Positions 17,495 to 49,128 of a stretch of 64,000 nucleotides of DNA are shown here, in pieces (within the stretch, counting starts at the first letter, position 1; each line of letters opens with the position of its first letter). Source of the stretch: Candidatus Poribacteria bacterium (lineage in GTDB: Bacteria > Poribacteria > WGA-4E > GCA-2687025); the NCBI GenBank assembly GCA_026004875.1, contig BPJZ01000001.1:64001-128000 (forward strand), written 5' to 3'. The position numbers and the translations under genes are program-made. Below the pieces are notes generated by a model that ran no database searches, was not told the DNA's origin, and saw only the letters and a list, made by a program, of their open reading frames with translations.

Positions 17495-18658
17495 TCAGGC
17501 GGAAGGGTTGACGAAAAATCGGGCCGAAAGGAACAACCCCAGCCCGTAAAGCAGCACGCCGATCAGCAACACCGAGGAAGGAAGCAAGCCTAGCTCCAGA
17601 AGGGACCAGGCGAGCAGCGGTCCGGAGGCGGCCCCCAGGTCGGAGCCGGTGACGTAGGCGGCCAGGGAGGCGGAACCGCGCAGGGCCGCCTCGCTGGTCA
17701 GGATGGTATTCAGTGCAGTGGCGACGGCAAAAAACCCGATCACCGCCCCGGCTAACAGGGGCAACGGTGACGGTCGCCAAAGGAGGAGCAAAAACACTCC
17801 GCCACCGATCAGGCTGCATCGGGTGAGCCGGTCGCGGCCGTACCGATCGGCTAAGGCGCCAAAGCCTGGGGCTCCCACCCCTTCCAGCACCCACCGGGAG
17901 GCCAGGAGAAGCCCGTTCAGCGTTGCCAGTCCCAACAGTGCCCCCTCTGAGCGCTGAGCTCCAAGCCGTTCGGTGAGCAGAGCGCCCAACGAAGACATCA
18001 CAATTCCGGCGACGCAGCCGACCAGCCAACCGTTGGAGGCGACCAGAACAAGCCGCCGCCACATTCGCCCTCCAGGAGCTGGCGGGGACGGCCTCTTGGC
18101 CCGAGACGGGGCCGCTCCAGCCAGCGGCACCGCCCCTAGCGAAACGAGGGCCATCAGGAGAAAGGTCCAAAACCATCCGCTCAGGTCTACCAGCAGACCG
18201 CCGACCGCGTTTCCAACGAGCGAGCCCAGCCGGGCGATACCGTTGTAAACGCCCACGCTGCGACTCTCCCGACCGGTGGCAGCGGAGGCGGTGACCTCTG
18301 CAATGCCGCTGTGTCGAATGAAGGACCAGCAGAGCCCCCAGACTACCCGCGCCAGTAGAAACCACCCAAAGGCCGGCAACAGCGCATAGGCAAACGTCGT
18401 CAGGCTCCCGACGAAGCAGCTGATCGCAAACAACACCCGCACCCGATACCGCTCCAGCGCCCAGGCGGCCAGCGAGTTGGTCAGAAAGCGGATCCATCGG
18501 TTGACGCTCAGAAGCAGTCCAACGTGAAACGGTGCCAAGCCCAACCGCTCATACTCCGTCGGCAGAACGGCGTAGAGCGCCTGGTCCCCCAGCAGCGAAA
18601 GCGCCGTTGCGCCGCTGACGAGCCAAGTCACCCCTAAGGTGCGTCGGGAACGCTCCAT
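17495..18658 (-). CDS. Major facilitator superfamily transporter
   Basis: A 387-residue permease with about 12 membrane segments. The MFS loop motif is visible as GVGAPGFGALADRYGRDRLTR (GxLADRxGRxR) near the second-half loop 8-9. An N-terminal WLVSGATALSLLGDQALYAVLPTEY segment and RYRVRVLFAISCFVGS follow the family layout. ATG 18658 has GAGGAGAA just upstream; longer upstream reading lies over the divergent subtilase gene and is rejected. Substrate unknown. It is divergent from the subtilase with only 58 bases between the starts, so the two probably share a regulatory region. Confidence 0.85.
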   Translation of the reverse strand: MERSRRTLGVTWLVSGATALSLLGDQALYAVLPTEYERLGLAPFHVGLLLSVNRWIRFLTNSLAAWALERYRVRVLFAISCFVGSLTTFAYALLPAFGWFLLARVVWGLCWSFIRHSGIAEVTASAATGRESRSVGVYNGIARLGSLVGNAVGGLLVDLSGWFWTFLLMALVSLGAVPLAGAAPSRAKRPSPPAPGGRMWRRLVLVASNGWLVGCVAGIVMSSLGALLTERLGAQRSEGALLGLATLNGLLLASRWVLEGVGAPGFGALADRYGRDRLTRCSLIGGGVFLLLLWRPSPLPLLAGAVIGFFAVATALNTILTSEAALRGSASLAAYVTGSDLGAASGPLLAWSLLELGLLPSSVLLIGVLLYGLGLFLSARFFVNPSA

Positions 18659-18716
18659 CTTCTCCTCGGTCCCTCCTTGGAATACCGATACTATATCCGG
18701 AGGAGTGGACAAGGTC

Positions 18717-21700
18717 ATGCCAGACGAAGGCAGATGCGTCAGGCGGGCGGCTCTGAGGAGCCGGAGACACAAAAGAACATTCCTGATCGGTTGGATGCTC
18801 CTGTTGCTGCTCCAAGGCGCTTGGGGTGGGGAGCCCTCCGGCTCCTCCGAACCGCTCTGGGTGCCTGGAGAGCTTCTCGTGTGGATGGCGGACGACTCCG
18901 ACCCGCTCACGGCGTCGGGGTTGCAGGAGCTCCATCGCCGCTGGGGTCTGGTTGAGCGGCGACCTCTTCTCCCTCCATCTAGGGAGGAAAGGGGCCCGCA
19001 CGGCCGTCGGCTAGAACGATGGTGGCAGCTGCGCTTTGCGGAGCCGTTCAATCCCATCCGGGCCGCTGAGGAGTACCGACGCGCCCCTGGCGTTGCCTGG
19101 GCGGTCCCCAACCGGCTGCTTCGAGCTCAAGCGCTGATCCCCAACGATCCGGAGCTTCCCCGTCAGTGGAACCTGATCCCCATCCAAGCGCCGGAGGCCT
19201 GGGAGATCGAGCGAGGATCCCCGGAGGTGGTCGTCGCCGTGATCGACACCGGCGTGGACCTAAGCCACCCGGAGCTGCGGGGACGACTGTGGCGAAACCC
19301 CGGCGAACTCGCCGGCAACGGTCGAGACGACGACGGAAACGGATATGTAGACGACCTCCACGGATGGGACTTCCTGGACGCGCCTGCCCTTGATGGAGAA
19401 GGGGACCTGAGCGATCCGGACCCGGAGCCCCAGGACGAAAGCGGCCACGGAACCCATGTCGCCGGAATTCTTTGCGCCGAAGCCAACAACGGACTCGGGA
19501 TCGCCGGAGTTGCCTGGAACATCTCTCTGATGCCGCTACGGGCCGGGTTGAATCTGCAGCGCGGAGGGACCTTCGTCGTCGAAGACGACATTGCTTCGGC
19601 GATTGTGTATGCCGTGGAGAACGGCGCCCAGGTAATCAACATGAGCTTCGGGGACGGGATCGCTTCGCCACTGCTCGCGGACGCAGTACGTTACGCCGCC
19701 GATCGAGACGTGGTGCTGGTCGGGGCGGCAGGAAACGAAGGGCGCAGCGAGGTAGTCTACCCGGCGGCCTTTCCGGAGGTGATCGCCGTTGCCGCCTCGG
19801 ATCAGAACGACAACGCGGCCTACTTCACCAGCGCGACGCCAGAGGTGGACTTGACCGCCCCCGGCCTGGCGATTCTAAGCCTTGACCTAGGAGGAGGTCT
19901 GCGGACGCTCAGCGGAACTTCGATGGCGACGCCCCACGTGGCCGGTGTGGCAGCGCTGTTGCGCTCAAAGCGACCTGGACTCTCGGCTGAGGAGGTGCGT
20001 CACATCCTCCGCGCCTCCGGCGACCCTCTCCACCAGGAAGGACGGGCCGTCGGCGTGCCCCGACTCAACGCGTTTCGGGCGCTGCAGATGGCCACCGTCC
20101 CTTGGGCGCGGCTAGAGTTGGACACCTCGATCGCCGATCAGGCAATGTGGGTCTCCGGGGCGGTCGGCGGTCCGGAGGTGCGCGGCTACCGATTGGAGTA
20201 CGGGTTCACTCAGCAACCGACCGAGTGGAAGACGCTGACGGAACGGGAAGGGCTCCACCAAGAGACGCGGTTCCGATTCCGCTGGGAGACCGCCGCCTTG
20301 CCAGAAGGATGGGTAACCCTGCGCCTGGAGGCCTGGAACCGAGAAGGTCTCCTCGTTCGCGATCAGCGACTGGTCTGGATCGCCCATCACGAGTTGATTC
20401 CGGCGGCGGAGCGGATCGGCACCCTTTGGGTCTCTGGGGTCGAAACGGGCTATTGGAGCCTGAGAGCAGCAGAGCCGATCGTGGCCGAGTTCACCTTCTG
20501 GCACGCAGAGACCGGCGAACAGATCGGCCCCTGGCGGTTTGGAACGCCCCGTCAGCTGTTCTTTCTACTCCCGGCGGCCTGGCTGAACGCCGGAACGTGG
20601 ACTTACCACTTCAAGGGGAGCGACGCCCTCGGGCGGACGGTACGGGCTCAGGGCACGCTTTGGGTCGAGGAGCGGCCGATCAACCCACATCGGTTCGCCC
20701 CCCTTGTTCTGGCGGCGCCGGCGCTCCGGCTGGCCCCTGTTGTACTGGATCAGGACGGAGACGGAAGGGTGGAGATCGTCGGCGGTTCACCGTCCGACTC
20801 CTCGCTCCAGGTGGCCCAACTCTACGAGTGGGAGGGGGGAGCGCTCCAACTAGAGCGAACGTTTCCGGAGCCTTTCGTTCCGGAGGGGGCGCTCCCCCTC
20901 CCGGACGGGCGAACGCTGATCGCCGGAACGCGGAAGGGGGCGCTGCTGCTCTGGGAGGTGGGCCAGAGCCTGCGATTGCGGGCGCGGATGGAGGGCTACT
21001 CGGACGCGCGCTTTGGCGACCTGGACGGCGACGGTACGCCGGAGCTCGTCGTCAAGCGAGGAGCTTCCGGCGTGGCCGCCCTCGACTGGCGAACCGATCC
21101 CCCCTCGCTCTTGGCGGTCGGGCAGAACCCCTCCGAGGGGCGGAATCACCTAACCGGCGCACCGGCGCTGCTCCCTACCGAGGACGGCTCCTCCGTGGAG
21201 ATCGTCGCGGGAGACGTGGACGGAGACCTGATCCTCTGGCGATGGGCCGGATCGGGGCTTCAGGCGAGCACCCTCCGCGCCGCCGGGCTGACGAGAATCA
21301 ACGCCCTCAAGGCGACGGCGGGGCCGTCCGGCACCGCTGTCGCCGTCCTGGGAGCAGAACCCCTCGACCCGGAGCGCCCAGAGGCGGGAGAGCTCTGGGC
21401 CCTGCGCTGGTACGTCCGAAGAGGGACGGAGCTGGCCCCTGCTAGCGTCGCACCGATTCGGCTTCTCTCCTCGAAGTCCCAACCCCAACTGGCGCTCTCT
21501 TCGACCCCTCGCGGGGTCCGAGTGGCCTTGACAACAGGCACAACACTCTACACCTTCCTTTGGGAGGAGGGGCGAAGCTTCCTCGTCCCAGAGTGGGTCC
21601 GCCGCGGCCGGGAGGTGGGCGAACCGACGTTTCTCCCCCTTGGCGAAAGGGAGGTCCTGTTTTTCGCCCAGGAAGGGCAGCTTCAGGCCGTCTTCGCCGA

Positions 21701-22562
21701 AGAACAACCGCGTTATGCAAGCCTCCCTTACCACCTCCAAGCAGAGATCGTTGGGTCGGGCCTGGTGCGCCTCTGGTGGCGAAATGACCGCCCGGTCTGG
21801 GCCGTCCGCGTCGTCCGAGAGACGGCGAACGGTCGTACGACGGTCCTGGGAGACACCTTCGCCACAGAGCTGCTCGACCGCTCCGCGCCGATCGGGGAGC
21901 GGGTGACCTATCGGCTTCAGGTTGGAGAGACGCTCGCCGACGCGACGGAGATATGGGTCGCCTCCCCGCCCCGTTTGAAGGAAGCGGCGCCTCTGGATGC
22001 GCTGCGAGTGCGACTCCGGTTTTCCGAGCCCATGGGGGTCTCCGCCACTTACGCCTGGGCCTATCGGGTAGTTCGCCTAGAAGGAGCAAGCGTTCCGGTC
22101 CGCTCAGCGGTTCGGACAGAAGGGGGGAGGGCCGTCCTCCTGACACTTGATCGGCCCTTGGTTCCGGGCGAGTATCGCGTTGAGGTCGTCGCTCCGCTTC
22201 ACCTCCGAAGTCGAGATGGGGCCCCCCTGGATCCAGCTGGAGCCGAGGTTCGGTTGTTCGTCGAGTCCAACCCCTCCCCCGTTTATTCGCTGGAGACCGG
22301 CCGGGTCTATCCTAACCCGGTACGTCCCTCTCGGAGCCATCCGGCACGGGTGAGCTTCGACCGACTTCCCAGCGGGACGGAGGTCCGCATCTACTCGACC
22401 GCCGGGCGGCCGGTCGCCTCCGGACGAATTCCGGAGGGGGAAGACCGGTGGGTCTGGCCGCTGGTCAACGAGGCCGGAACTCTGGTCGCTCCGGGCGTTT
22501 ACCTCTACGTCCTCGAGTGGAACGGACGGCACAGGGCGGGCAAACTCGCTGTGATCTGGTAG
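18717..22562 (+). CDS. Giant secreted subtilisin-like serine protease (S8) with FlgD-like C-terminal domain
   Basis: About 1,281 residues. A basic N-region and hydrophobic stretch (FLIGWMLLLLLQGAWG) form the signal peptide, and a propeptide-like segment follows. The S8 catalytic domain has D177 (VAVIDTGVD), H244 (GHGTHVAGIL), the oxyanion N340 (AAGNEG) and S402 (SGTSMATPHVAG). The middle has FG-GAP/VCBS-like repeats (DQDGDGRVEIVGG, DLDGDGTPELVVK, DVDGDLILWRW) and beta-sandwich modules. The last ~80 residues (YPNPVRPS ... VRIYSTAGRPVASG ... GVYLYVLEW) form a FlgD Ig-like/T9SS-type C-terminal domain. It is probably exported and surface-bound or released. ATG 18717 is preceded by GGAGGAG. Confidence 0.92.
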   Translation: MPDEGRCVRRAALRSRRHKRTFLIGWMLLLLLQGAWGGEPSGSSEPLWVPGELLVWMADDSDPLTASGLQELHRRWGLVERRPLLPPSREERGPHGRRLERWWQLRFAEPFNPIRAAEEYRRAPGVAWAVPNRLLRAQALIPNDPELPRQWNLIPIQAPEAWEIERGSPEVVVAVIDTGVDLSHPELRGRLWRNPGELAGNGRDDDGNGYVDDLHGWDFLDAPALDGEGDLSDPDPEPQDESGHGTHVAGILCAEANNGLGIAGVAWNISLMPLRAGLNLQRGGTFVVEDDIASAIVYAVENGAQVINMSFGDGIASPLLADAVRYAADRDVVLVGAAGNEGRSEVVYPAAFPEVIAVAASDQNDNAAYFTSATPEVDLTAPGLAILSLDLGGGLRTLSGTSMATPHVAGVAALLRSKRPGLSAEEVRHILRASGDPLHQEGRAVGVPRLNAFRALQMATVPWARLELDTSIADQAMWVSGAVGGPEVRGYRLEYGFTQQPTEWKTLTEREGLHQETRFRFRWETAALPEGWVTLRLEAWNREGLLVRDQRLVWIAHHELIPAAERIGTLWVSGVETGYWSLRAAEPIVAEFTFWHAETGEQIGPWRFGTPRQLFFLLPAAWLNAGTWTYHFKGSDALGRTVRAQGTLWVEERPINPHRFAPLVLAAPALRLAPVVLDQDGDGRVEIVGGSPSDSSLQVAQLYEWEGGALQLERTFPEPFVPEGALPLPDGRTLIAGTRKGALLLWEVGQSLRLRARMEGYSDARFGDLDGDGTPELVVKRGASGVAALDWRTDPPSLLAVGQNPSEGRNHLTGAPALLPTEDGSSVEIVAGDVDGDLILWRWAGSGLQASTLRAAGLTRINALKATAGPSGTAVAVLGAEPLDPERPEAGELWALRWYVRRGTELAPASVAPIRLLSSKSQPQLALSSTPRGVRVALTTGTTLYTFLWEEGRSFLVPEWVRRGREVGEPTFLPLGEREVLFFAQEGQLQAVFAEEQPRYASLPYHLQAEIVGSGLVRLWWRNDRPVWAVRVVRETANGRTTVLGDTFATELLDRSAPIGERVTYRLQVGETLADATEIWVASPPRLKEAAPLDALRVRLRFSEPMGVSATYAWAYRVVRLEGASVPVRSAVRTEGGRAVLLTLDRPLVPGEYRVEVVAPLHLRSRDGAPLDPAGAEVRLFVESNPSPVYSLETGRVYPNPVRPSRSHPARVSFDRLPSGTEVRIYSTAGRPVASGRIPEGEDRWVWPLVNEAGTLVAPGVYLYVLEWNGRHRAGKLAVIW

Positions 22563-22584: not shown

Positions 22585-24437
22585 CTACTCAGCCGGCAGA
22601 GGAACGAAAACCAACTCCGGCCGGGGAGGCTCCTCCATCCCAGCGCCAAGGTAGTACCCGACCTGCGTGGGAAGATTGTACCCGACGTTCTGCCAGGCAA
22701 CGCTCAGCCGGTAGATCGGATCGTGCATCAGGGTGACCAGTCGGTGTTCCGTCGGCGCGGTGGAGACGAAGACTCGCAGCTCGGTGTTGTCCCGCGTGCG
22801 CCAGATCACCTCCTCCCGCCAGTCGCCCAGAATGTCGGCGCTCAGCGAGGGATTTGCCTTGGAGCCGTTGTTCCGGACACAGGCGTACTCCGCAGCGTCT
22901 AGCAGGAGCTCCGTCTCCTGGGTCTGAGGGTTCCATTTGAGGATTTGGGTCCCGTCGAGAAGCTCACGGAGCAGATCGCCGTCCCACCAGAGGGCCATAT
23001 TGCAGGAACGGGGCTTGACTTCAGAGATCGGCTCGCCCTTGGCGCTGTAGAGGGCGTCGAGACCCCGTCCGGAGGCCCAGCACTCGTAGCCCCGATAGCG
23101 CGGGTCAATGTCCGCGGTCAGCCCCCGGCTGACGTCCGGGGAGGGGACGCTCCAAAGAATCTCACCGGTCGCAGCGTCCCGGAGGTTGATCCCGTGCGGA
23201 TGGCGGGGGTTCTCGTGAATGGCAAAGACCTCCAGCCCGGGGCGGTCCGGGTCAATATCGGCCAGGTGGAGGGCGTCCCCATGCCCGAGGCCGGTGCTGT
23301 AAAGCCCTGTGCCATTATCGTCAATGGTACAGGCGCCGTACACGATCTCGTCCCGCCCGTCATCGTCCACGTCGCCGACGGCCAAGTTGTGGTTCCCCTG
23401 ACCGGCGTAGCGGCGGTTCTCCGGACCTCCTCCGTGGCTGTCGAAGGTCCAAACGCGGGCCAACTTCCCGTCGCGCCAGTTCCAGGCGACCAGAACGGTT
23501 CGGGTATAGTAGCCCCGCGCCATGATCAGGCTGGGCCGCTCCCCGTCCAGATAGGCGATAGCGGCCAGGAACCGATCTACTCGGTTGCCGTAGTTGTCGC
23601 CCCAATCGGAGACGTTTCCGCGTGGAGGGAGATAGTCGGTGGTGACCAGTGCAGCGCCGGTTCGCCCGTCGAAGATGGTCAGATACTCCGGTCCGTCGAG
23701 GATGCGTCCTTGAGGGTTCCGCCAGTCAGCGTTCGGATCGCCGATCACCTGACCCAGACCGTCCACGGTGCCGTCGGCAGTTTTGCAGGCGACCTCGGCT
23801 CGCCCGTCCCCGTCCAGGTCGTAAACCATGAACTGAGTGTAGTGCGCCCCCTCCCGGATGTTGATCCCTAGCTGAATCTGCCAAAGCCGGGTTCCGTCCA
23901 ACCGATAAGCCTCCAGGATGGGTGGATCGGTCCATCCGTCCTGGGAGTTGTCCCGCCCTCGTCCGGCCTGGTGAAGGACGATCTCGTACTCGCCGTCCCC
24001 GTCGAGATCGCCGACTGAAGCGTCGTTCGGAGCGTAGCCCTCCGGCGTTTGGAGGGGGATGGAAAGGTACGGCTGGACCGGCGCTCCAGCGGGAAGCACC
24101 ACGGAGCGGCTCGGCTCGCCCTCCTGACCGTTCAGGACGGGGCGAACGAAGTAGCGCAACGGTCGGCTGAAGTCGGGCGGGTTGTCTCGGAACCAGGTGA
24201 CCGCTTCGAGCGGCTCGCGGGTGAGCCGCTCGGGCGCCCCCCGCCTAAAGCACGGTAAAGGTGGAACGCAATCTCTGGCGGGTCGCTCCCCAGCAGCCGC
24301 CAGCTCAGAAAGACGCTCCGCTCGGAGTCCCGAAGGACGACCAGGCCACGTCCTAGCGTCTCCATCTGCCGCGCGGCGTGAACCGTAGAAAGCGCACACA
24401 GAAGCCATCCCAGCGCAAAAGAAATCCCTCTCCTCAC
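22585..24437 (-). CDS. Rhamnogalacturonan lyase, polysaccharide lyase family 11 (frameshift in a G run)
   Basis: An exported ~617-residue PL11 enzyme that cleaves rhamnogalacturonan I by beta-elimination. The N-terminus (signal MRRGISFALGWLLCALSTVHA, then RQMETLGRGLVVL and VFLSWRLLGSDP) is in one frame. From about 24245 the protein continues in another (APERLTREPLEAVTWFRDNPPD). The break is a six-base run (CCCCCC on the plus strand, 24237-24242). The rest is an eight-bladed-propeller type with calcium-site repeats (DLDGDGEYEIV, DLDGDGRAEVACK, DVDDDGRDEIVYG) and conserved SWDGNYGNR-like and MARGYYTR blocks. It is immediately downstream of the GH106-like gene on the same strand, with a 20-base gap, and both would act on the same polymer. 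Confidence 0.9.
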
Positions 24438-24457
24438 CGGTCAACTCCTCCTGGGCT

Positions 24458-27367
24458 TCACGGGCCTTCGCGGACGTCGCGGGAACGGTGCTCGACAGGA
24501 TCAAACCATTGGCCCTCGAAGGCCCGGATCAGCGTCGTATAGACCCGCAGGCGGAGAACGTTATCCCCCTCCCGCAGTTCAGCGGTGGGCAGCTGGAGCG
24601 CATAGGGCGACCAGGGCAGCGCACGCCACGGCCCCCCGTTAACCGACAGCTCCAAGGCGTCCTGAAACGGAACGCCGTGATCCAGCTCCAGGATCGCCTG
24701 CTTGGTCGGTGGGAGCTCCCGCTGTCGGAACTGCGCCCGGTACTCCACGGCGCCGGCGTAGTAGGGAAGGCCATTCTTGCGCCAGGCTTCATACTCCCCC
24801 TGCTCCGGACGGGAAGCCAATCGGGGAACTTCTCCGTCCAGCCAAACGCCAAACGGTCCGGCCAGATAGAGGGGGTTCCGCAACCCTCCGTCCAGCCGAT
24901 CGCTCTCCACCTGTACCGTTATGACGTTTTCGCCGGCCAAAAGTTGATCTGCGATCGGAGCTCCCAGACTCCCGCGAACGTGCGCATCGGTCGGCCGGAA
25001 GTCCTCCGGACGGAGGACCGCCCTCTCGTTGACTTGAATCGTCCATCTTCCTCCGATCGATCCGGGTTCGAGGACCAGCTCGCAGGGTCCCTCCCACTCG
25101 CTCAAGAACCGGTAGCGATAACGAACGACCAGCGGAGGAATCTCCATCTGGGGCATCACCCCAAAGGTAAACCGGAAGCGCGGAGAGAATCGAAATGCCC
25201 CCTCAGCGAGCTGATTGGCCAGTGGCATCGCCCGCACCGTCGCCCGCTGAAAGGCGGTTCCGTCCTCACCGAGCAGCTCCATCTCCCAAGGGTCCATCCG
25301 GAGCAGGTTGCTGTTCAGCGGGCGAACTTGGACCCTCGGGGCAACGGGCACCCGGACGCGAGGCACAAACTCGGTCGGCCCTTCCGCCTTCTCCTCTCCT
25401 TCTATCCCCTCCGCCAAGAGGAGCGACTCGAAGGGCGCCAGACGCCGCCGATAACGTCCTCCGCTTCGTTCCAACAGGGAGGGCAACCGATCGTCCAAGG
25501 GCACCTCCCGAAGCGGTTGGGCGTGACGAATCGTCAGCGAAAGGGTTTGGTCAGAAGTGTTCAGAAGGAACCAGACCCGGCGGGAGCCGTCTGTTCGCCG
25601 GACTACCCAGAGCCGTTCGCGAGGACCCGACTCGACCTCCAACTCCAGCGCTGGGAAGACACGCTCCTGAAGCCAGGTGAGAAGCGCCTCCTCCTCCCAG
25701 TCCAGCTCCAAACGGAGGACGGCTCCGCCCTTGCGCTCGAAGGCCTCCAGCCATCGCTGGAGTGGCTCCTCGACCGTTTGCATCGGGGGAAGGAGAAGGA
25801 CCGGAGCGGAGACCCCTCGCACTTGAACCCGCCCGTTTTCGATGATGCCCGATTCCAGAATCTCCGTGTCCACGATCAGGAACTCATATTGATTTCCGGC
25901 CAGCGTCTGGAGCAGCCGCTCGTAGGCGCGGAGCTGTTCGGCTCCGGGAAGCCCCGCGTGAGGGTCCAGGACGAGGACCTCCGCTTCGATATGTGTGCCT
26001 TCAAAGGCTCGAGCGATTCGTTCCACACGCTCGCTCAGGCAGGCAAAGAGCTTCCAATAAGGCATTTGAAAGAAAAAGGAGGGGGGCGCGTCATGTTTAG
26101 AAAGTCCGTGCGTGGTGTAGAAGAAGCCGTGAGGTACCAGATAGCGGATTCCGGCCCAGAGCAACCCTTCAGCGATCAGCTTGGCGTCCTGGAGGGTGCC
26201 GCTCCAGCCCAGGCTATGATAGCACTCACACAGCCCCCCTTCTTTGCCGTAGAAGTACGCCGCCGAGGCGACGGCCCGCGCGTTGCTTCGAATCGAGGCG
26301 CGGAGAATGTCCAGTGGTGCCCCCGCCTTGGTGTGCCCCGGATCGCAGCCGGGAAGGTCCATGAATCGGAGCTGGCTCAGCCGGAGGGAGGGCTTCTCGC
26401 CGGCGTACCGCAACCCTTGAGCTCGGCACCATCGAGCGACCGGCTCCTCAAAGCTCTCACAGAAGAGCCGGTAACGAAGTCGGTACAGATCGGCAGCGAC
26501 CCGCAGATGCTCCGGGTGGTCTCGATCCTGAAGGGCCGGCAGCGACCGGATCAAATCATAGCCATACTCGGCGCGAAAGGCCTCTGGAAGCCGCTCCGAC
26601 CAGCCGGGGGCTGTCTCGTCCACGAAGATCGAACCGATCCGCTTCCCGAACTGGTCCCCAAATCGGCGGCGATACTCCTCGTGCGTGAGCCGCAAAAACT
26701 CGCTCACGGCCTCTGGGTTTAGCACATCCGCGAAGTGACCCCAGTACTTATGCCCTTCGACGACCGCCTGAACCGACACGAACAACCGATAGCGTCCTTT
26801 GGGAAGCTCCACCTCCAGGACCGGTGTCGGATTGCTGGCGAAGTAACGCTTCCGATTGTAAGCAGTCAGACCCGTTTCATTAAAGGACTCGTCCGTTAGG
26901 ATCGGTCCGACGTGGGCGAGCAGGTCCACCGGTCGACCCCAGTCGGGGCCGTTCTCTCGAAGCGGATAGGCCGTGCAGTTGAGGACCTTTCCCCGCGGCA
27001 ACGCCAACCGAACGCAGCCCCCTTCGAGATCGTAGGTGCGCTGGATCAAGCGAGTAGCCCAGAAGTGGGGATTACCCAAGAGCACCTTTCCTCCCGCGAC
27101 CCCGCTGGGATAGGGGTATTCGTCGTAAAGGTGTACGATTAAGCCGTGTTTCTCCGCCTCTTCCAGGGCGACGGCGACCGCCTGAAAGAAGCTCTCCGAG
27201 AGATAGGGGGTGCCCAGCCCCTGCCGCGGATGAACGAAGAATCCCCGAATGCCGGCACGGGCCATCTCCTGGACCTGCCATCGGATCTCTTGGGGGTCCA
27301 AGGCCGCGTTCCAGAACCAGAAGGGATGAAAGCCGTCAGGCAGAGGTGTCCATTGCGGATGGCTCAT
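24458..27367 (-). CDS. GH106-type alpha-L-rhamnosidase
   Basis: A 969-residue protein with the GH106 opening (FHPFWFWNAALDPQEIRWQVQEM, AGIRGFFVHPR, HGLIVHLYDEYPYPSGVAGG). It then shows IGSIFVDETAPGW near the expected catalytic region, GKEGGLCECYHSLGWSGT and HGFFYTTHGLSKHDAPPSFF. The C-terminal ~300 residues are beta-sandwich modules with galactose-binding-like features (NVITVQVESDRLDGGLRNPLYL). GH106 enzymes remove L-rhamnose from rhamnogalacturonan and glycosides. No signal peptide is evident from ATG 27367 (GAGGGAG upstream), so action may be cytoplasmic. Upstream extension of the open frame overlaps the HEAT gene and is rejected. Substrate is inferred from family and from the adjacent PL11 gene. 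Confidence 0.82.
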   Translation of the reverse strand: MSHPQWTPLPDGFHPFWFWNAALDPQEIRWQVQEMARAGIRGFFVHPRQGLGTPYLSESFFQAVAVALEEAEKHGLIVHLYDEYPYPSGVAGGKVLLGNPHFWATRLIQRTYDLEGGCVRLALPRGKVLNCTAYPLRENGPDWGRPVDLLAHVGPILTDESFNETGLTAYNRKRYFASNPTPVLEVELPKGRYRLFVSVQAVVEGHKYWGHFADVLNPEAVSEFLRLTHEEYRRRFGDQFGKRIGSIFVDETAPGWSERLPEAFRAEYGYDLIRSLPALQDRDHPEHLRVAADLYRLRYRLFCESFEEPVARWCRAQGLRYAGEKPSLRLSQLRFMDLPGCDPGHTKAGAPLDILRASIRSNARAVASAAYFYGKEGGLCECYHSLGWSGTLQDAKLIAEGLLWAGIRYLVPHGFFYTTHGLSKHDAPPSFFFQMPYWKLFACLSERVERIARAFEGTHIEAEVLVLDPHAGLPGAEQLRAYERLLQTLAGNQYEFLIVDTEILESGIIENGRVQVRGVSAPVLLLPPMQTVEEPLQRWLEAFERKGGAVLRLELDWEEEALLTWLQERVFPALELEVESGPRERLWVVRRTDGSRRVWFLLNTSDQTLSLTIRHAQPLREVPLDDRLPSLLERSGGRYRRRLAPFESLLLAEGIEGEEKAEGPTEFVPRVRVPVAPRVQVRPLNSNLLRMDPWEMELLGEDGTAFQRATVRAMPLANQLAEGAFRFSPRFRFTFGVMPQMEIPPLVVRYRYRFLSEWEGPCELVLEPGSIGGRWTIQVNERAVLRPEDFRPTDAHVRGSLGAPIADQLLAGENVITVQVESDRLDGGLRNPLYLAGPFGVWLDGEVPRLASRPEQGEYEAWRKNGLPYYAGAVEYRAQFRQRELPPTKQAILELDHGVPFQDALELSVNGGPWRALPWSPYALQLPTAELREGDNVLRLRVYTTLIRAFEGQWFDPVEHRSRDVREGP

Positions 27368-27404: not shown

Positions 27405-28169
27405 TCAAGACCGGGAGCGGCCTCGCGTGGATCGGGCGACTTCGGCCAGCTCCTGAGCCAGCCGATCGAGGTCGAAGGCGTCTCGCTCTCGGCGACGGGG
27501 CGGCGGGGCGGAGGGCCCCGAATCCGAGGGTGTCGAGGGCTGAGGTCGCGGCTCTGGCGGCGACTCCTGAGGAGGGGGCGCCTCCTGAGCGGCAGGACCA
27601 GCAACAGGCGCCTGAGACGCCTGGGATGGGGCGTGTTCGCCCCTCGCCGGTTGGGGTTCCTGGGGAGGGGTGGCATCTTCGCCGGTCTCGCCGACCGCCG
27701 CGGGTGCTTCGGCCTCTAGGTCGTGGGCGACCTGCTCCAAGAGCTCATCGAGCGAAGGCCGAGCGGCCCGTTCTTGGGCTTCGAGCTTCTCGGCGAGTTG
27801 GCGGAGCTCTTGGACCGCCTGCTGGGCCACCTCGCGCACCTCCGGGGCCTGGTCCTCGGAGGCCAGTCGCGAGAGGATGTCCAACGCAGCCACGTCCCCG
27901 TGGCGCCGGAGTTCATCGGCCGCCGCGGCCCGGACGCGCGGGTCCCGATGCTCGGTAAAAGAGCGCACCACCTCCAGGGCGTGTTCCCCCAGCGCGGCGA
28001 TCACCCGAACGCCGTACGCTCGCAGGATCGAGGCGATCTCGAACGGCTCCTGATAGGTGTGATAGCCGAGGTTCTGCACCAGCTGCTCGGCAAGCCGACG
28101 CACCGGCTCCGGCGGCTCGATCAGTCGAGCGGTATAGGTAACGGATGGACGACGAACGCGGCGACGCAT
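27405..28169 (-). CDS. HEAT-repeat protein with proline/glutamate-rich tail
   Basis: A 254-residue protein. Residues ~15-125 form about three HEAT-type helical repeats (VRSFTEHRDPRVRAAAADELRRHGD; LSRLASEDQAPEVREVAQQAVQEL), a surface for protein contacts. Residues ~155-230 are rich in Pro, Gln, Glu and Ala and are probably disordered. A short charged helix ends the protein (DAFDLDRLAQELAEVARS). It sits 9 bases after the VWA gene on the same strand, so the two are probably co-expressed and may work together. No enzyme motif. ATG 28169 follows AGGGGG. Function not known. Confidence 0.75.
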   Translation of the reverse strand: MRRRVRRPSVTYTARLIEPPEPVRRLAEQLVQNLGYHTYQEPFEIASILRAYGVRVIAALGEHALEVVRSFTEHRDPRVRAAAADELRRHGDVAALDILSRLASEDQAPEVREVAQQAVQELRQLAEKLEAQERAARPSLDELLEQVAHDLEAEAPAAVGETGEDATPPQEPQPARGEHAPSQASQAPVAGPAAQEAPPPQESPPEPRPQPSTPSDSGPSAPPPRRRERDAFDLDRLAQELAEVARSTRGRSRS

Positions 28170-28178
28170 CGAAACCCC

Positions 28179-30827
28179 CTAGGACCGTGCCCGCTCCCGC
28201 GCCGTCCGGAGACGTTCCCAGTGTTCCAAGACAGAGACGGAGTCTTGGGCTCGTCTCCACCGCTCCCGACGAAGGGCGTTCAACCGCGCCAGTAGTTCAA
28301 CCGTCGGCTCTGCGCTGGGACGACGACGCCGGGGGACGCCTAATTGTCGCACGACCCACTCGCAGAAGACAAGCAGTAGCCCCAGCCCAAGCAGCCAGGA
28401 GCGCAACGGCCGCTCCTGCACCCAGGGGCGAGGACGGATCGGCGCCCATCCCTTCGCGGGAGGGCTGTAGTACTGCCCTCCGGTCGCCTCAGCCAGCCGT
28501 CGAAGCCGCTCAGGGTCGGGAGGTACCCGGTACTCCGCCCCTCCCAGGAAGAGGATCTCTCGCCGGACCGTTGCGCCCTGTGGCGCCCGAACGCTTAGCC
28601 GGTAGGTGCCGACCCTCCGAAGGTCGAAGCCGGCCGCCGCGACGCCCCGGCGTACTGGGGCGCGTACCTTCTGGACCGTCCCCTCAGGGGCGCGGAGGAG
28701 AAATTCCGCCAGGTCGTTCGCCTCGGCGAAAAACGCCCGCACTTCGAGCCTTGCCCCGTTCAGGTTCGTGGTTAGATCGAACGGCTCCTCCACCGCCGGT
28801 AGAACGGCCTCCACCCAAGCACGAAAGGCCCCCCGCGCGCGAGGATCGGCTAGCCAACGGCGGCTCCATCGGCCTCCGTCGGTGGTCAGGGTCAGGACCC
28901 GCCCTAGGCCGAACCACCATCCGGCCAGAATCGGGTCCCCCGCTGGGGTGCGCAGGTAGACCTCCGCGGCCGGCTTAGGAGCGGTTGAGAGATATCCCTC
29001 GACCGGTGGGAGCTCAGAAACGGCCAGCGGATGATCCATCGCCGGAACAACCGAGACCGGCCCGGGATTCCAAAGCTCACCTTCCTGGCGGCTTTCCTCG
29101 GCAACGATCCGCGGAAGGGCTCGGGCGTCGCTGAGCGGATAGTAACGACCCCCGGTGAGCGCCGCCATCTCCTCAAGGGCCGGGTGGGCAGCCTCGCCGA
29201 TTCCGACGACGGAAAGAGTTATTCCGGCCTCCTCGACCCGACGGGCCGCCGCGAGTAAGTCCCCTATCGAATAGCCATCGGAGAGGAGTAACAGTTGCTT
29301 ACGCGGGAAGTGGACTCCCTCAAACAGCCGAGCGGCAGCCTCCAGCGCCGCTGGAATGTCGGTGCCGTTGCCAGGGCGCAACCGCCGGATCGCGTCAAGA
29401 AGGGGCCTTGAAGCCTCCGGCGACTGCCAGCGCAAAAGAACCTCCGGCTCTCGATCGAAGGCGACCACGCTCAAACGGTCCTGCGGCTGGAGCGCTTCCA
29501 TCGCTGCACGGACAGCAATTCGGGCCAGGTCCAGCTTGGATAATCCCTCCGCCGTTCCGGCCATACTCCCCGACTTGTCTAGGACAAGCACCAGCCCCAA
29601 AGGAAGGTGCCGATCCTGAGGGACCATCCGGACCGGCGTCAGCTCCTCAAGCGGCGTGCCCTGCCATCCCCCTAGGCCGTAGGTGTGCGGACCGCCAAGA
29701 CTCAGGAGACCGACACCAAGGTTTTGAACGGCGTCTCGGAGTGCCGCCTGCTGCGTTGGATCCAGGGCTTCGGCGGGTAGATCGTCCAGCAACAGGGCGG
29801 TCCAAGCCCGATACTCCGCCGCTGATCGAGGAAGCGCTTCGGGTGAGAGCTGGATCCATCGGTACCCTTTGGCCTCCTGGAGGAGCCGGGCCAGCGGGGA
29901 GGGACCCGCCGGGCCCGGGACAAACGCCAGGACCGGCGGCTCGGCTCGCTCGACGATCGCTCCGATCCGATCGTTCGCCGGTTGGTGGTCCCAGTCGGCC
30001 TTGAGGAAAGCAACGATCTCTGCGGACTCTCTAACGAGCGGGGGCAGGCTTCCCTCCCACTCCTGCACACCGACGCTCAGAGAAAGGGTCTGGGTGAGGG
30101 CCGTTTGTCCGTCCACCAGAAGGGAGAGCGTTCCCGTTCCCCGTTGGGTGCTTTCCAAGATCAACCGGACGGGGACGGACTCCCCCTCTCGCGTTTTGGG
30201 GGGCACCTCAATCTGCAGCAGTCGGGCGTCAGGGATCGGTTCCGGTCGCAGGGGAAGGACGTCGATCGGCACCCGCTCGGCCTGAAGGCGCGGCAGGAGG
30301 AGCTCCACCTGGCCGAGCGTTTCGGCGCCGTCGCTCAGGAGCAGAATCCGCCGCTCTCCCCAGGGGGGCAGGAGCCCGAGGCCTTGCAGAACGGCCCGCT
30401 CCAGCGAGGTTCCCTCGGTTGGGACCGGCGGCTCCCGGAGCCGATCGGCCCAACGCTCTGGGGCGTTGTTCTCCGGCGCCCCCGGCGGGATGACAACAAC
30501 CGGCTCTTCGGCAAACAGCAGAGTCGCTGCTCGCGCCCCTTTTGGAAGCCGGTCCAGATAATTGCGAAGCGCCGGAAGCTCCCTGGCCACTGCGCTCCGG
30601 CAGCTTTCGGAAACGTCCACGAGCAGGACGGCGGTCGCCTCGACACGAGAGCGGGGCCAGTACGGCCCGCTGAGCGCGGCCGCCAGGAAGGCTAGGCCAA
30701 GGACTCGCAGGAGAACTCCAAAGCGCTCCCGGCGGTTCCGCTGGCGCCGTCCCGTCCTCCAGAGGAGAAGCGTCCCCCCGATCGCCGTTAGTCCAACAAG
30801 GACGGCCCAGCCCGTCTGAGTGATCAC
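28179..30827 (-). CDS. Membrane protein with two von Willebrand factor A domains and a GATase1-like middle
   Basis: An 882-residue protein. Two N-terminal membrane helices (ALVGLTAIGGTLLLW region, and 37-58) are followed by a first VWA domain with MIDAS DVSES (71-75). A beta domain and a glutamine-amidotransferase-like segment come next (LLSLGGPHTYGLGGW, ~374-388). The second VWA domain has MIDAS DKSGSM (417-422). A C-terminal membrane helix lies near ~825. This resembles large BatA/YehP-style or DUF4159-neighbour proteins of Planctomycetes and Poribacteria that assemble surface or MoxR-linked complexes; no MoxR ATPase is in the window. GTG start at 30827. Partner: the HEAT gene just downstream. 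Confidence 0.8.
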   Translation of the reverse strand: MITQTGWAVLVGLTAIGGTLLLWRTGRRQRNRRERFGVLLRVLGLAFLAAALSGPYWPRSRVEATAVLLVDVSESCRSAVARELPALRNYLDRLPKGARAATLLFAEEPVVVIPPGAPENNAPERWADRLREPPVPTEGTSLERAVLQGLGLLPPWGERRILLLSDGAETLGQVELLLPRLQAERVPIDVLPLRPEPIPDARLLQIEVPPKTREGESVPVRLILESTQRGTGTLSLLVDGQTALTQTLSLSVGVQEWEGSLPPLVRESAEIVAFLKADWDHQPANDRIGAIVERAEPPVLAFVPGPAGPSPLARLLQEAKGYRWIQLSPEALPRSAAEYRAWTALLLDDLPAEALDPTQQAALRDAVQNLGVGLLSLGGPHTYGLGGWQGTPLEELTPVRMVPQDRHLPLGLVLVLDKSGSMAGTAEGLSKLDLARIAVRAAMEALQPQDRLSVVAFDREPEVLLRWQSPEASRPLLDAIRRLRPGNGTDIPAALEAAARLFEGVHFPRKQLLLLSDGYSIGDLLAAARRVEEAGITLSVVGIGEAAHPALEEMAALTGGRYYPLSDARALPRIVAEESRQEGELWNPGPVSVVPAMDHPLAVSELPPVEGYLSTAPKPAAEVYLRTPAGDPILAGWWFGLGRVLTLTTDGGRWSRRWLADPRARGAFRAWVEAVLPAVEEPFDLTTNLNGARLEVRAFFAEANDLAEFLLRAPEGTVQKVRAPVRRGVAAAGFDLRRVGTYRLSVRAPQGATVRREILFLGGAEYRVPPDPERLRRLAEATGGQYYSPPAKGWAPIRPRPWVQERPLRSWLLGLGLLLVFCEWVVRQLGVPRRRRPSAEPTVELLARLNALRRERWRRAQDSVSVLEHWERLRTARERARS

Positions 30828-33950: not shown

Positions 33951-33986
33951 CCCCAAAAACTGCGCGAAGAGAAGGAGATGCGACCG

Positions 33987-34349
33987 ATGGAAAAACGGTC
34001 CCTGGTACGAGCCTCTGAGGTTCTTGTCGAACGGCTCCCCCATTGCGTGTTGCAGTGGCACTGTCACGGGAAGAACACCCCGGCCCAACACCTGGCGCTG
34101 GGAACCGCCACCTTTCCCAAGGGCGGAGGGCACGACCGTCACTATCACCCAAACGCCGAGGAGTTCATCTACGTCGTTCAAGGGAAGGCCCGACAGGGGC
34201 TGGAAGACCAGGAGTTCGAGATGGAACCGGGGGACTGTATTCTGATTCCGCAGGGGGCCGTCCACTACACAAGAAATGTAGGGGATGGGGAGCTGATCAT
34301 CCTGGTGGGCTTCAGCTCACCCCATCCGGAGACGGTGGACCTCAAGTAG
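33987..34349 (+). CDS. Single-domain cupin protein
   Basis: A 120-residue cupin_2 protein. The first cupin motif is GGGHDRHYHPNAEEFIYVVQGKA, with two histidines and a glutamate as metal ligands. The second motif is PGDCILIPQGAVHYTRNVGDGE with its histidine. ATG 33987 is preferred because AAGGAG is 9 bases upstream; an ATG nine bases earlier has poor spacing. Small cupins are often sugar isomerases, dioxygenases or binding proteins. Its place 10 bases before the L-rhamnonate dehydratase-like gene suggests a role in sugar-acid metabolism (inference). Confidence 0.85.
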   Translation: MEKRSLVRASEVLVERLPHCVLQWHCHGKNTPAQHLALGTATFPKGGGHDRHYHPNAEEFIYVVQGKARQGLEDQEFEMEPGDCILIPQGAVHYTRNVGDGELIILVGFSSPHPETVDLK

Positions 34350-34359
34350 GAGCGGAACG

Positions 34360-35529
34360 ATGCGCATCCGTTCGGTCGAGGTGTGTCGTCTGGAGCGGCC
34401 GCCGGACGCGAGCGCGGAGCCTGCAACCCCCCGGCGGGAGCCATGGGCCGTCCACGCTGAAGTGGCCAATCCGATGTCCAAGTTCCAGCGCTTCAAGCGT
34501 CATCGGAGCCTCTGGCTGCCCAAGTGGCCGCCGGTCTTCGTGAAGGTCACTGCCGAAGACGGCACCTGGGGACTCGGGATGACCTCCCACGGGCGCCCGG
34601 TGGCGGCTATCATCGAAGACCACTTAGGGCCGCTGCTGATCGGGGAGAACGCCTTCGCCGTCGAACGGTGCTGGGACCTGATGAACCGCGCCACCAAGCC
34701 GTACGGCACCTCCGGCTTGGCCTGCTGCGCCATCTCTGCGCTCGACTTAGCCCTTTGGGACCTGGTGGGGAAGCTTTTGGACCGTCCTGTTTATGAACTG
34801 CTGGGCGGTCCAGCGCGTGAGCGGATCTTTACCTATGCCACCGGAAACGATGTGGATTGGTACCAAGAGTGTGGCTTTCGAGCCTTCAAGTTAGCCTGTC
34901 CTTATGGTCCTGCGGACGGTTGGGAGGGCCTCCAAGCCAACGAGGAGCTGGTCGCCAGGGCGCGGGAGCAGATCGGCGACGAGGCCGAACTGATGCTCGA
35001 CTGTTACATGGCCTTCGACGTGGACTATACCGTCCGACTGGCGGAGCAGCTCCGTCCCTATCACCTGCGCTGGATCGAAGAGTTTCTATTTCCCGAGGAC
35101 TTTGAGGGACACCGCGCCGTTCGGGAGCGGATCCCTTGGCAACCGCTGGCCGGCGGCGAGCACCTGTTCACCCCTTGGCCTTTCCGCCGGCTGATCGAAG
35201 ACCGCTCGCTGGACGTGCTTCAGCCGGACATCTTCTGGGTCGGCGGCCTGACCGCCTGCCGGCACATCTGCACTATCGCCAACGCTGCGAACGTCGCGGT
35301 GATCCTGCACGGCGGAGGGATGCACCCTTATGGGCTCCACTTGACGGCGGCTATGCCGAACACGCCCTGGGCGGAGTACTTCATTGCGAGTCCGCCGGGG
35401 ATTCCCCTGAACCAGACTAAGCCGCTGTTGGCCACCGTCGTTCCGGAGGCGGGCTTCATCTTTCCGACCGACGCGCCAGGGTTTGGTTTGGAGGTCAAAG
35501 AGGAGTGGCTCAAGCCCTTCTTTGGGTGA
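34360..35529 (+). CDS. Enolase-superfamily dehydratase, probably L-rhamnonate dehydratase-like
   Basis: A 389-residue mandelate-racemase-type enzyme. Residues 37-47 (ANPMSKFQRFK) match the ATPMSKY segment of L-rhamnonate dehydratase (EC 4.2.1.90). ISALDLALWDLVGKLLDRPVYELLGG is the superfamily linker. Metal ligands are D214 (LMLDCYM), E240 (RWIEEF) and E267 (GGEHLF). A catalytic-type histidine is at H317 (ILHGGGMHPYG), with the QPD(I/V)xWxGGLT block before it. The match to rhamnonate dehydratase is by remembered motifs; fuconate or other acid-sugar dehydratases remain possible. It would convert a sugar acid to a 2-keto-3-deoxy acid. It follows the cupin gene directly. Confidence 0.82.
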   Translation: MRIRSVEVCRLERPPDASAEPATPRREPWAVHAEVANPMSKFQRFKRHRSLWLPKWPPVFVKVTAEDGTWGLGMTSHGRPVAAIIEDHLGPLLIGENAFAVERCWDLMNRATKPYGTSGLACCAISALDLALWDLVGKLLDRPVYELLGGPARERIFTYATGNDVDWYQECGFRAFKLACPYGPADGWEGLQANEELVARAREQIGDEAELMLDCYMAFDVDYTVRLAEQLRPYHLRWIEEFLFPEDFEGHRAVRERIPWQPLAGGEHLFTPWPFRRLIEDRSLDVLQPDIFWVGGLTACRHICTIANAANVAVILHGGGMHPYGLHLTAAMPNTPWAEYFIASPPGIPLNQTKPLLATVVPEAGFIFPTDAPGFGLEVKEEWLKPFFG

Positions 35530-36622: not shown

Positions 36623-37492
36623 TCAACGGGGATAGATTAGATAGCCTCGACGATCGGTCCGCGCCCGAAAGAGACACCCGCTGGCCGTTACATAGAGCGT
36701 CTTCAAATCGTCGTCGCCCCAGGTGCAGTTGGTCGGATGCGCGTCAATCGGATGGGTCTCCAAAACGCGCCCGTTGGGGGCAAAGACGTAAATCATCGGT
36801 CCTGGCCCGCTCTGCTTCCACCCAGCGGTGGCGACGATGTTCCCTTCCTCGTCCAGGCACATCCCGTCGATGCCTCGGTGCGGATAGAAGTTGTGAAGCA
36901 CTTCGTAGGCGCCGACCGAACCGTCTTCGAACACCTCATAGGCGCGGAGCTCCCGTTTTTTGTTCTCTCCGTATTCGCTCTGAGCGACATAAAGCCGGTC
37001 CATTTCTGGGGTGATTAAAAGACCGTTGGGACGGGTCGTGTCATAGGTCACTCGGTGAATCGTCCAGGAGCCGTCCGGCTGAGGGTCGAGGCGGTACACC
37101 GACTCGTGGTCCAGCTCCATGTCGTCCCGCTTTTCGCCGTAGCGCGGGTCTGAGAACCAGAGTCGCCCCTTGAGGTCAAAAGCCAAGTCGTTAGGGCTGT
37201 TGAGCCGCTTCCCCTCAAAGCGGTCGGCGACGATCTCCTTGGTGCCGTCGGAACGAAACCGAACGATCGCCCGATCGCCGCCGGCACAACCGTAAAGGAC
37301 GCCGTTGGCGTCAAACATCAGCCCGTTGGTGCCGCCGGTGTTGGTGATGTACTCCTCGCACTTCCCGGTGCGAGGGTCGTAGCGCATGATCCGATTGTTT
37401 GGAATGTCGGTAAACAGGACTGCTTCGCCGTCCCAGGCGGGGCCTTCGGTGAATCGAAACGGACCGGCGACCAGCTCAAACTCCCAGCTCAT
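36623..37492 (-). CDS. SMP-30/gluconolactonase-family lactonase
   Basis: A 289-residue six-bladed propeller. Family blocks are RFTEGPAWDGEAVLFTDIPNNRI, GGTNGLMFDANGVLYGCAGG, LNSPNDLAFDLKGRLWFSDPRYG (metal-binding Asn/Asp), TRPNGLLITPEMDRLYVAQS and GIDGMCLDEEGNIVATAG. These enzymes hydrolyse sugar lactones such as gluconolactone with a divalent metal. ATG 37492 has AAGGAG 9 bases upstream. It converges with the APH gene and lies close to the rhamnonate-dehydratase-like gene, so a sugar-acid lactone substrate fits (inference). No signal peptide. Confidence 0.9.
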   Translation of the reverse strand: MSWEFELVAGPFRFTEGPAWDGEAVLFTDIPNNRIMRYDPRTGKCEEYITNTGGTNGLMFDANGVLYGCAGGDRAIVRFRSDGTKEIVADRFEGKRLNSPNDLAFDLKGRLWFSDPRYGEKRDDMELDHESVYRLDPQPDGSWTIHRVTYDTTRPNGLLITPEMDRLYVAQSEYGENKKRELRAYEVFEDGSVGAYEVLHNFYPHRGIDGMCLDEEGNIVATAGWKQSGPGPMIYVFAPNGRVLETHPIDAHPTNCTWGDDDLKTLYVTASGCLFRARTDRRGYLIYPR

Positions 37493-45424: not shown

Positions 45425-46387
45425 ATGGAGGTCCGTTTTTGGGGCGTGCAGGGGAGTATTCCCGCTCCGTTGACGACGGGGGAGTACCTCACCAAGTTGC
45501 GGAGCGTTCTTCTCAGCGCTCACGGTGTCGATCTCTCTTCGGATGAGAGGATCGAGCAGTTCATCCAAGGGCTGGACTTCCCCGTTCGCCACGTGATCCG
45601 CGGCGACACGACCTGTATCAGTGTGACCGACGGGGAGACGCTCCTTATCTTCGACGCCGGCTCAGGACTCCGGCGTTTGGGGATCCATCTGATGAGCCTT
45701 CCGGATTCCCCTTACGCCCGTGGACAAGGTCAGGTCCATCTGTTCTTTTCCCACCACCACCACGACCACACGAACGGGTTCCCGTTTTTCACCCCCGCCT
45801 ACATTCCTGGCAACTGGATCTATTTCTACGGCCTGCACCCGAACCTAGAAGAGCGGATGGTCGGTCTGCAGGTTTACGAGTACTTCCCGGTCCCCTTCCA
45901 TGTGATGGCCGCTAAGAAAGCGTTTATCTCCCTGGAGCCGGATCAGCCGATCACCGTCGGAGCGTTTACGATCACGCCCTTTGAGCTGAAGCACCCGGGA
46001 GGCGCTTACGGCTATCGGGTCGAGTGGAAGGATCGAGTCTTCGTTTACTCCTCCGATTCGGAGTTCCAGAACCCCAGCGCGGCGGAGATCTTCTACTACA
46101 CCCACGCCTATCGGGACGCCGATCTGCTCTATTTTGACGCTCAGTACACGTTGACCGAGTCGTTCGTCAAGGAGGATTGGGGGCACAGTTCGGCGTGGAT
46201 GGGGATTGACCTTTCCGTTCGGGCGCGGGTCAAGCGGCTGTTGCTGGGTCATCACGAGCCGTCTCATTCCGAGGAGGAGCTGTTCGTCCTGTTGGAGGAG
46301 GCCCGGCGGTACCTTCAACTGAACTACCCCGAGGCGACGCTTGAGGTGCTGCTGGCCGTCCAGGACCAGAGCTTTCGCTTGGAGTGA
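45425..46387 (+). CDS. MBL-fold metallo-hydrolase
   Basis: A 320-residue metallo-beta-lactamase-fold protein. It opens [15 protein letters not shown], a hallmark of a PDE/cAMP-phosphodiesterase-like MBL group. [28 protein letters not shown] follows, then the metal motif [12 protein letters not shown] (H110, H112, D114, H115), FVYSSDSEF near 209 and [10 protein letters not shown]. It lacks export signals. ATG 45425 with GGAG upstream; the open frame continues upstream but without similarity. Substrate unknown; class III cyclic-nucleotide phosphodiesterase activity is one possibility. A terminator-like hairpin follows the stop. Confidence 0.88.
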
Positions 46388-46389
46388 CC

Positions 46390-46415
46390 CGTCCGCTTGC
46401 GGACGTTCTTCCCTT
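46390..46415 (+). terminator. Intrinsic terminator after the MBL-fold gene
   Basis: CGTCCG (46390-46395) pairs with CGGACG (46400-46405) over a CTTG loop, directly after the TGA and followed by a pyrimidine-rich TTCTTCCCTTT. Confidence 0.5.
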
Positions 46416-46466
46416 TCGATACCCTCCAAAGCGGATCAGGACGGCTTTTTCCAAGGCAACGAAGGG

Positions 46467-47715
46467 ATGCAAACGATGGGAACGCTGGAGTCTCGGATTC
46501 AGGAGCGCTACAAACTGCTGGTCGAAGACCTTCAGGAGCGGGGCGTAGACGTGGAGGACGTCAAACGTCGGCTCAAGGCACAACAGATCGAGACGCCCTC
46601 CTGGGGTTACGGCGATTCGGGAACCCGTTTTGGCGTCTTCCAGCAGCCCTGGGCGGCTCGCAACGTGCACGAACGGCTTCAGGACGCGGCGGTCACCCAC
46701 CGATATACGGGGGTGGCCCCTTCGGTGGCGCTTCATATCCCCTGGGATAAGGTGGACGACTGGGCTGCCCTCAAGCAGTACGCCGACGAGCTGGGGATTC
46801 GGATCGGAGCGATCAATCCGAACCTCTTTCAGGACCAGGACTATAAGCTGGGGAGCGTCTGCAATCCAGACCCTCGGATCCGCGGCAAAGCGATCGAGCA
46901 CCTGCTTGAATGCACCGAAATCATGCGAATCGTGGACTCCGACATTCTCAGCGTTTGGCTGGCCGACGGGACGAACTACCCCGGCCAAGACGACTTTCGT
47001 AAGCGGCATCAGTACCTGGTCGAGGCCCTCAAGGTCGCCTACGACGACCTGCCCGCGGACGCCCGGATGTTGGTGGAGTACAAGTTCTTTGAGCCAGCCT
47101 TCTATCACACCGATCTGCCCGATTGGGGGACCGCGTTACTGGTCTGCCAGCGACTGGGGGATCAAGCGCAGGTGCTGATTGATACCGGCCACCACCCTTT
47201 GGGCACCAACATCGAGATGATCGTCGCTCTCCTGCTGGAGTACGGCAAGCTGGGCGGCTTTCACTTCAACTGCCGGAAGTACGCCGACGACGACCTGACA
47301 ACCGGTTCGATCAACCCGCAGGAGCTGTTTTTTGATCTACTGCGAGCTGGTCAAGGAGGAGCGCAAGCCAGACTCGAAGGCGAAGATCGCCTACATGATC
47401 GACCAGAGCCACAACATTAAGCCTAAGATCGAGGCGATGATCCAGTCGGTAATGAACATCCAGACGGCGTATGCCAAGGCGCTGATCGTCCCGATGGATC
47501 GACTCCGAGAGCTGCAAGAGGCCGCGGACGTCGTCGGCGCCGAGCGGGTGCTCCAACAGGCCTACGAGACCGACGTTCAGCCGCTGTTGCAGACGGTGCG
47601 GATCGAAATGGGACTGCATCCCGACCCCCTGGAGGCGTTCCGAGCCAGCGGGTACCTCCAAAAGGCCGCCGAAGAACGCCGGGAAGGCCCTCGAACCGGC
47701 TGGGGGGCGTCCTGA
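46467..47715 (+). CDS. L-rhamnose isomerase (RhaI type), frameshift in a T run
   Basis: A ~415-residue TIM-barrel isomerase expected to convert L-rhamnose to L-rhamnulose. It has [76 protein letters not shown] and [26 protein letters not shown] and [16 protein letters not shown] carry metal-binding residues. All these are typical of the Bacillus/Pseudomonas-stutzeri RhaI group. Near 47327-47333 six Ts shift the frame; with one fewer the chain continues [15 protein letters not shown] ... [18 protein letters not shown] to 47715. The protein is otherwise complete. Context: its partners PL11 and GH106 lie 20 kb away. Confidence 0.9.
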
Positions 47716-48908: not shown

Positions 48909-49128
48909 AAGAATCCGACAAGCCCTGCTGACCTTCTCCGCAACTGACAGCGGGCGGTTCGTGACCGCGCCCTGCTGGTCGAGTCTGCTTTTCCTCTCAT
49001 CCCCTCGGCGACGGTTTTGCGAGCCTGAGCGGACGTCTTTCCCATTCCTTCGGGGGATACGGTATCCTTGGAGCGGTGCGCCCAAGTCGCCCAGAGGACA
49101 GAAAGGGAAAGGGGGACAAAGCGGATTC

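Follow-up and report, generated by a model that had tools for sequence, protein, structure and literature searches.

In Latescibacteria, a fucose/rhamnose microcompartment (BMC) has been predicted together with a PL11 enzyme (PMC4454575), and in Poribacteria satellite-like BMC loci have been reported without a signature enzyme (PMC4207490). Among the GH106 enzymes, the Ram106B proteins are cytosolic rhamnosidases without a signal peptide, which form a subgroup of the family in Thermotoga, Caldicellulosiruptor, and Thermoclostridium and in which Asp-Glu replaces Asp458-Ser459 of BT_0986 (PMC6828813).

The stretch of 64,000 nt analyzed here (the window) belongs to a poribacterial draft genome of 38 contigs, 2.84 Mb in total and 64% complete. 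Taken together, its genes are likely to reflect an ordinary rhamnogalacturonan-I capability of an uncultured bacterium. They are of known kinds, partly mis-framed, and an earlier note on this DNA, which had proposed a two-gene rhamnogalacturonan cassette and two parallel routes for L-rhamnose, over-read the pathway. The genes lying around the putative cassette were as follows.

22585..24437 (about), minus strand: PL11 rhamnogalacturonan lyase, probably exported (PF21348, PDB homologues)
24458..27367, minus strand: GH106-like enzyme of 969 aa, cytosolic, putative alpha-L-rhamnosidase (PF17132, profile search, fold search)
27405..28169, minus strand: HEAT-repeat protein without a known pectin link (PF13646)
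28179..30827, minus strand: VWA-domain protein, first gene of the run, without a known pectin link (PF13519/PF00092)

The PL11 and GH106-like genes are indeed adjacent on the minus strand, with 20 nt between the GH106-like stop and the PL11 start. The extent of two genes did not hold, since the same-strand run comprises four, VWA, HEAT, GH106-like, and PL11, the first two being separated by 9 nt and HEAT from the GH106-like gene by 37 nt. The reported absence of a SusC/D-type importer was confirmed within the window. Horizontal import of the pair was considered and found unsupported, as its GC and GC3 values resemble those of the neighbors.

The identity of the PL11 lyase is, as judged from its sequence, beyond doubt. 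The RGL11 catalytic domain (PF21348) scored 761.6 bits against a cut-off of 27 (E = 4.8e-229), and the catalytic domain resembles the Bacillus subtilis enzymes YesW and YesX, as well as the PL11 of 4cag, over its whole length, with long alignments to PDB entries 4cag, 2z8r, and 2zuy at E values of 1e-192 to 1e-209. It was the sole PL11 gene found in the genome. Unlike these counterparts, its N-terminal part is frameshifted in the assembly. The N-terminus of the listed frame (22585-24504) was out of register in a three-frame reading, and the true start was placed at a GTG at 24437, followed in frame 0 by VRRGISFALGWLLCALSTVHA and the beginning of the mature protein, the catalytic part being read in frame 2. 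A G-run adjoins the shift, which falls within 24263 to 24228 and leaves about 60 N-terminal residues in the other frame. The leader VRRGISFALGWLLCALSTVHA is signal-like, the signal peptide being called by eye. The N-terminal RGI-lyase beta-sheet domain does not share one frame with the catalytic domain and was left unscored because of the break. An S8-family protease gene (18639-22562) adjoins the PL11 gene in convergent orientation, and its C-terminal segment weakly resembles the PorZ model for type IX secretion (E 1.9e-7).

The GH106-like protein, for which no signal peptide was called by eye, passed the PF17132 cut-off of 29.0 marginally, at 29.0 to 29.4 bits. Relatives with 38 to 65% identity were found at 28 loci in public genomes of Poribacteria, Latescibacterota, Gemmatimonadetes, Lentisphaerae, Spirochaetes, Chloroflexi, and others; no close orthologue was found within the same family of genomes. 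An alignment of 23 sequences, 16 of which matched PF17132 individually, was turned into a profile for a PDB search, and every match with E < 1e-5 was a GH106 enzyme (5mqm/5mwk, E about 1e-12). In the fold search with an AlphaFold model (pLDDT 88.3), the three top Foldseek hits were GH106 entries (BT_0986 and RHA-P, E 2.9e-38 to 3.4e-32), and GH42 trailed by many orders of magnitude. The model superposed on BT_0986 and RHA-P with a TM score of 0.44 to 0.48 and a full-chain rmsd of 17 A; the domain arrangement therefore differs or is uncertain. In the alignment with BT_0986, D458 corresponds to D250, S459 to E251, and E538 to E324; the alignment ends before the catalytic base E593, for which E381 is a candidate by spacing, and conservation of the catalytic acid E461 was not evident. 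The protein thus shares with Ram106B the missing signal peptide, the remote GH106 similarity, and the Asp-Glu pair (D250-E251), and differs at the E538 position, apparently Glu here and His in Ram106B as compared by its published description (PMC6828813).

Because of the GH106 profile and fold matches and the parallels to Ram106B, a rhamnosidase is the most likely function, with catalytic residues that could be placed only in part. The remoteness of the GH106 similarity would also suit another exo-glycosidase of related fold standing beside PL11 by chance, and the neighborhoods of the relatives agree with this: among the 25 GH106-like loci compared, several of them on short contigs, PL11 was near in one, a Clostridia contig (L013) where it lies two genes downstream, and the others had varied neighbors (GH29 fucosidase, sugar isomerase-like protein, DUF1961, glycosyltransferase). 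Such an enzyme is nevertheless rather unlikely, given that the three best folds were GH106 entries far ahead of GH42 and that all profile matches below 1e-5 fell in GH106. Action of the pair on rhamnogalacturonan I is plausible; the L013 pairing did not recur across the varied loci, and the link to this polymer is thus only suggested.

The cytosolic "PFWFWN" enzymes, that is, the protein at 24458-27367 and its relatives in Poribacteria, Latescibacterota, Lentisphaerae, Spirochaetes, and others, might, as a tentative proposal, stand apart as a subfamily within GH106, or else share its fold and make up a new glycoside hydrolase family; in either case they would have an active-site set of their own and act on pectin-derived oligosaccharides. 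The invariant active-site candidates are D250, E251, E324, E381, H384, K424, H425, and D426.

The genes on which the proposed double route for L-rhamnose was based lie at higher coordinates in the window.

33978..34349, plus strand: small cupin, its gene ending 10 nt before that of the dehydratase (PF07883, 66.9 bits; no match in NCBIfam)
34360..35529, plus strand: enolase-superfamily acid-sugar dehydratase, L-rhamnonate dehydratase-like (PF13378/PF02746)
36623..37492, minus strand: SMP-30/gluconolactonase-like protein, facing the preceding gene in convergent orientation (PF08450, 143 bits)
46467..47715, plus strand: RhaI-type L-rhamnose isomerase, interrupted by a one-base shift (TIGR02635, PDB 2hcv/3m0y)

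The L-rhamnose isomerase named in the earlier note is present and of RhaI type, although not as a single open frame. The frame at 46341-47420 scored 454.4 bits with TIGR02635 over profile positions 2 to 262 of 378 and missed the cut-off of 531.35, because it stops at profile position 262 and the remainder lies in another frame. The intact isomerases of four relatives aligned in two HSPs, in frames 3 and 1, which meet within the TTTTTT run at 47329-47334. In most relatives the ORF is uninterrupted, about 404 to 460 aa long. The assignment to the Pseudomonas stutzeri type is good on sequence grounds: the protein matched PDB 2hcv/3m0y with E 3.9e-78, residues 9 to 289 being aligned with the P. 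stutzeri enzyme (2hcv), and the Glu, Asp, and His residues and DDD motifs of the metal-binding core are conserved. It differs from the P. stutzeri-type isomerase in its frame, broken at the T6 run, and in standing alone without a rha operon.

Taken as they stand in the assembly, the broken frames of the isomerase, PL11, and the XdhC-type gene could mark decaying pseudogenes. This is very unlikely, as homopolymer runs, the usual site of sequencing indels, are found at or close to the breaks, and both isomerase halves keep 58 to 81% identity to the relatives right up to the break. The XdhC/CoxI-like gene that follows the isomerase (47814-49100) seems to change frame at least two times, which points to an indel-prone assembly as the simplest reading of the broken isomerase frame. 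The assembly as a whole appears to be rich in one-base indels, and such shifts, as a warning, break genes that by-eye reading had joined.

A rhamnose operon around RhaI was sought in the relatives and rejected, since the neighbors, aspS, mazG, a potassium-channel-like protein, ComF, or an oxidoreductase with an RpiA-like protein, are unrelated. In two loci of relatives (L126, 11031-13968; L127, 2237-5096), genes for a GFO/IDH-like oxidoreductase and an RpiA-like isomerase come after RhaI, their ends touching, and this hints that RhaI may serve a purpose other than simple breakdown of rhamnose. Matches to the family of xylose-isomerase-like TIM barrels were found at 39 places of the 2.84 Mb draft, which amounts to a large expansion.

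Both the dehydratase and the cupin were found where the earlier note had described an L-rhamnonate dehydratase-like enzyme; specificity for L-rhamnonate was not borne out. An SMP-30 gene was likewise present near the coordinates given for a lactonase, its only NCBIfam match being a weak one to ScyD/ScyE. No link to rhamnose was found for the cupin or for the SMP-30 gene. The latter lies on the opposite strand, separated from the dehydratase gene by an APH-like gene, and conserved linkage of the cupin or SMP-30 gene to the dehydratase was looked for in the relatives and not seen.

If the dehydratase were a true L-rhamnonate dehydratase (RhamD), the organism would have two real L-rhamnose routes, isomerase and oxidative. 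Its best PDB matches were indeed L-rhamnonate dehydratases (2oz3, 3fxg, 2p0i, and 2i5q). Along with the long capping loop common to 2i5q, 2oz3, and 3fxg, it retains the RhamD metal ligands and His-Asp pair as D214, E240, E267, D290, and H317; we take the first three to be Mg ligands and the last two to be the His-Asp pair, with roles as in E. coli RhamD. Two HpcH/HpaI aldolases and several SDR dehydrogenases were found in the genome, and the isomerase and dehydratase are both class-wide. Two routes are nonetheless unlikely. The dehydratase scored 298.2 bits with the curated model NF011968, below the cut-off of 393, and its scores with RhamD entries (222 to 258 bits) were close to those with the other putative dehydratases 3ssz and 3stp (207 to 211 bits). 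The capping loop carries Glu and Asn in this protein and in all close orthologues compared, in place of His and Thr in E. coli RhamD. No linked rhamnose dehydrogenase or L-KDR aldolase was found, and the HpcH/HpaI aldolases scored higher as HpaI/GarL than as L-KDR aldolase. The dehydratase is probably not a dedicated part of a rhamnose route here.

Coexistence of the two enzymes was analyzed in 59 genomes, the source genome and its relatives. The isomerase was found in 53 and the dehydratase query was matched in 54; both occurred together in 50, or in 35 when only close dehydratase orthologues (E < 1e-165, at least about 59% identical) were counted. In the relatives' loci examined, the two genes were not side by side, each lying among unrelated genes. 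The control panel also gave a match to the rhamnonate dehydratase model for E. coli, which uses the isomerase route for L-rhamnose. The claim that both routes are suggested here, and that this is unusual, was therefore not supported: the genes coexist in most of the related genomes, which makes coexistence a class-wide trait, and neither route is complete in this 64%-complete draft.

The search of the genome covered chosen families and selected stretches. Of the rhamnulose kinase, aldolase, and L-rhamnose dehydrogenase to be sought according to the earlier note, no kinase above the cut-off, no class II aldolase (PF00596), and no identified dehydrogenase were found in the 64%-complete draft, nor was a GH88/GH105 enzyme for removal of the unsaturated uronate left by PL11. 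At this completeness such absences are weak and none is firm. The best FGGY kinase was closest to L-fuculokinase (234 bits, below the cut-off), and matches to TIGR02632, considered for rhamnulose-1-phosphate aldolase, cover the SDR part only. For the oxidative route, only generic SDRs and the two HpcH/HpaI aldolases came up as candidates.

Genes for a class II aldolase, a CoA-acylating aldehyde dehydrogenase, and a BMC-H shell protein were clustered in four relatives (G002, G005, G007, and G008); G001, G009, and G011 likewise had shell or aldolase genes. The aldolase-shell-aldehyde dehydrogenase loci, with family scans of G002 and G007 only, were the following.

L120, 7745-10434
L121, 9591-12443
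L123, 3593-6897
L124, 6884-9588

The trio may represent a deoxysugar microcompartment with a signature enzyme. It resembles the PVM-type L-fucose/L-rhamnose microcompartment and the satellite-like poribacterial loci (PMC4207490) in its three genes and differs from the PVM type in having one shell gene only at the locus; the aldolase was not found in the incomplete source genome. Within the class, the isomerase route would more likely drain through such a microcompartment and its class II aldolase. Weak PF00596 matches of about 350 aa in f2 relatives were also considered, and rhamnose-kinase neighbors were not evident.

In the likely scheme of rhamnogalacturonan-I use, the exported PL11 lyase would cut the backbone, an activity well supported at the family level, and the oligosaccharides would be taken up through an importer. 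The cytosolic GH106-like enzyme, as its fold and family suggest, would then remove terminal L-rhamnose, and the RhaI-type isomerase, with its frameshift regarded as an assembly error and the enzyme as functional in the cell, would convert it to L-rhamnulose, again at the family level. In the relatives, L-rhamnulose would probably pass through an FGGY kinase to the class II aldolase coupled to the microcompartment. The dehydratase would act on some aldonic acid and may feed the HpcH/HpaI-type aldolases.

Since these kinds of genes are known and close relatives carry them together, the double pathway called unusual is neither demonstrated nor a rarity, and having both RhaI and a RhamD-like enzyme is typical of the class rather than an oddity. 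The locus extends the list of uncultured lineages that can probably use rhamnogalacturonan I, and the one part that could merit follow-up is the GH106-like family, cytosolic and widespread.
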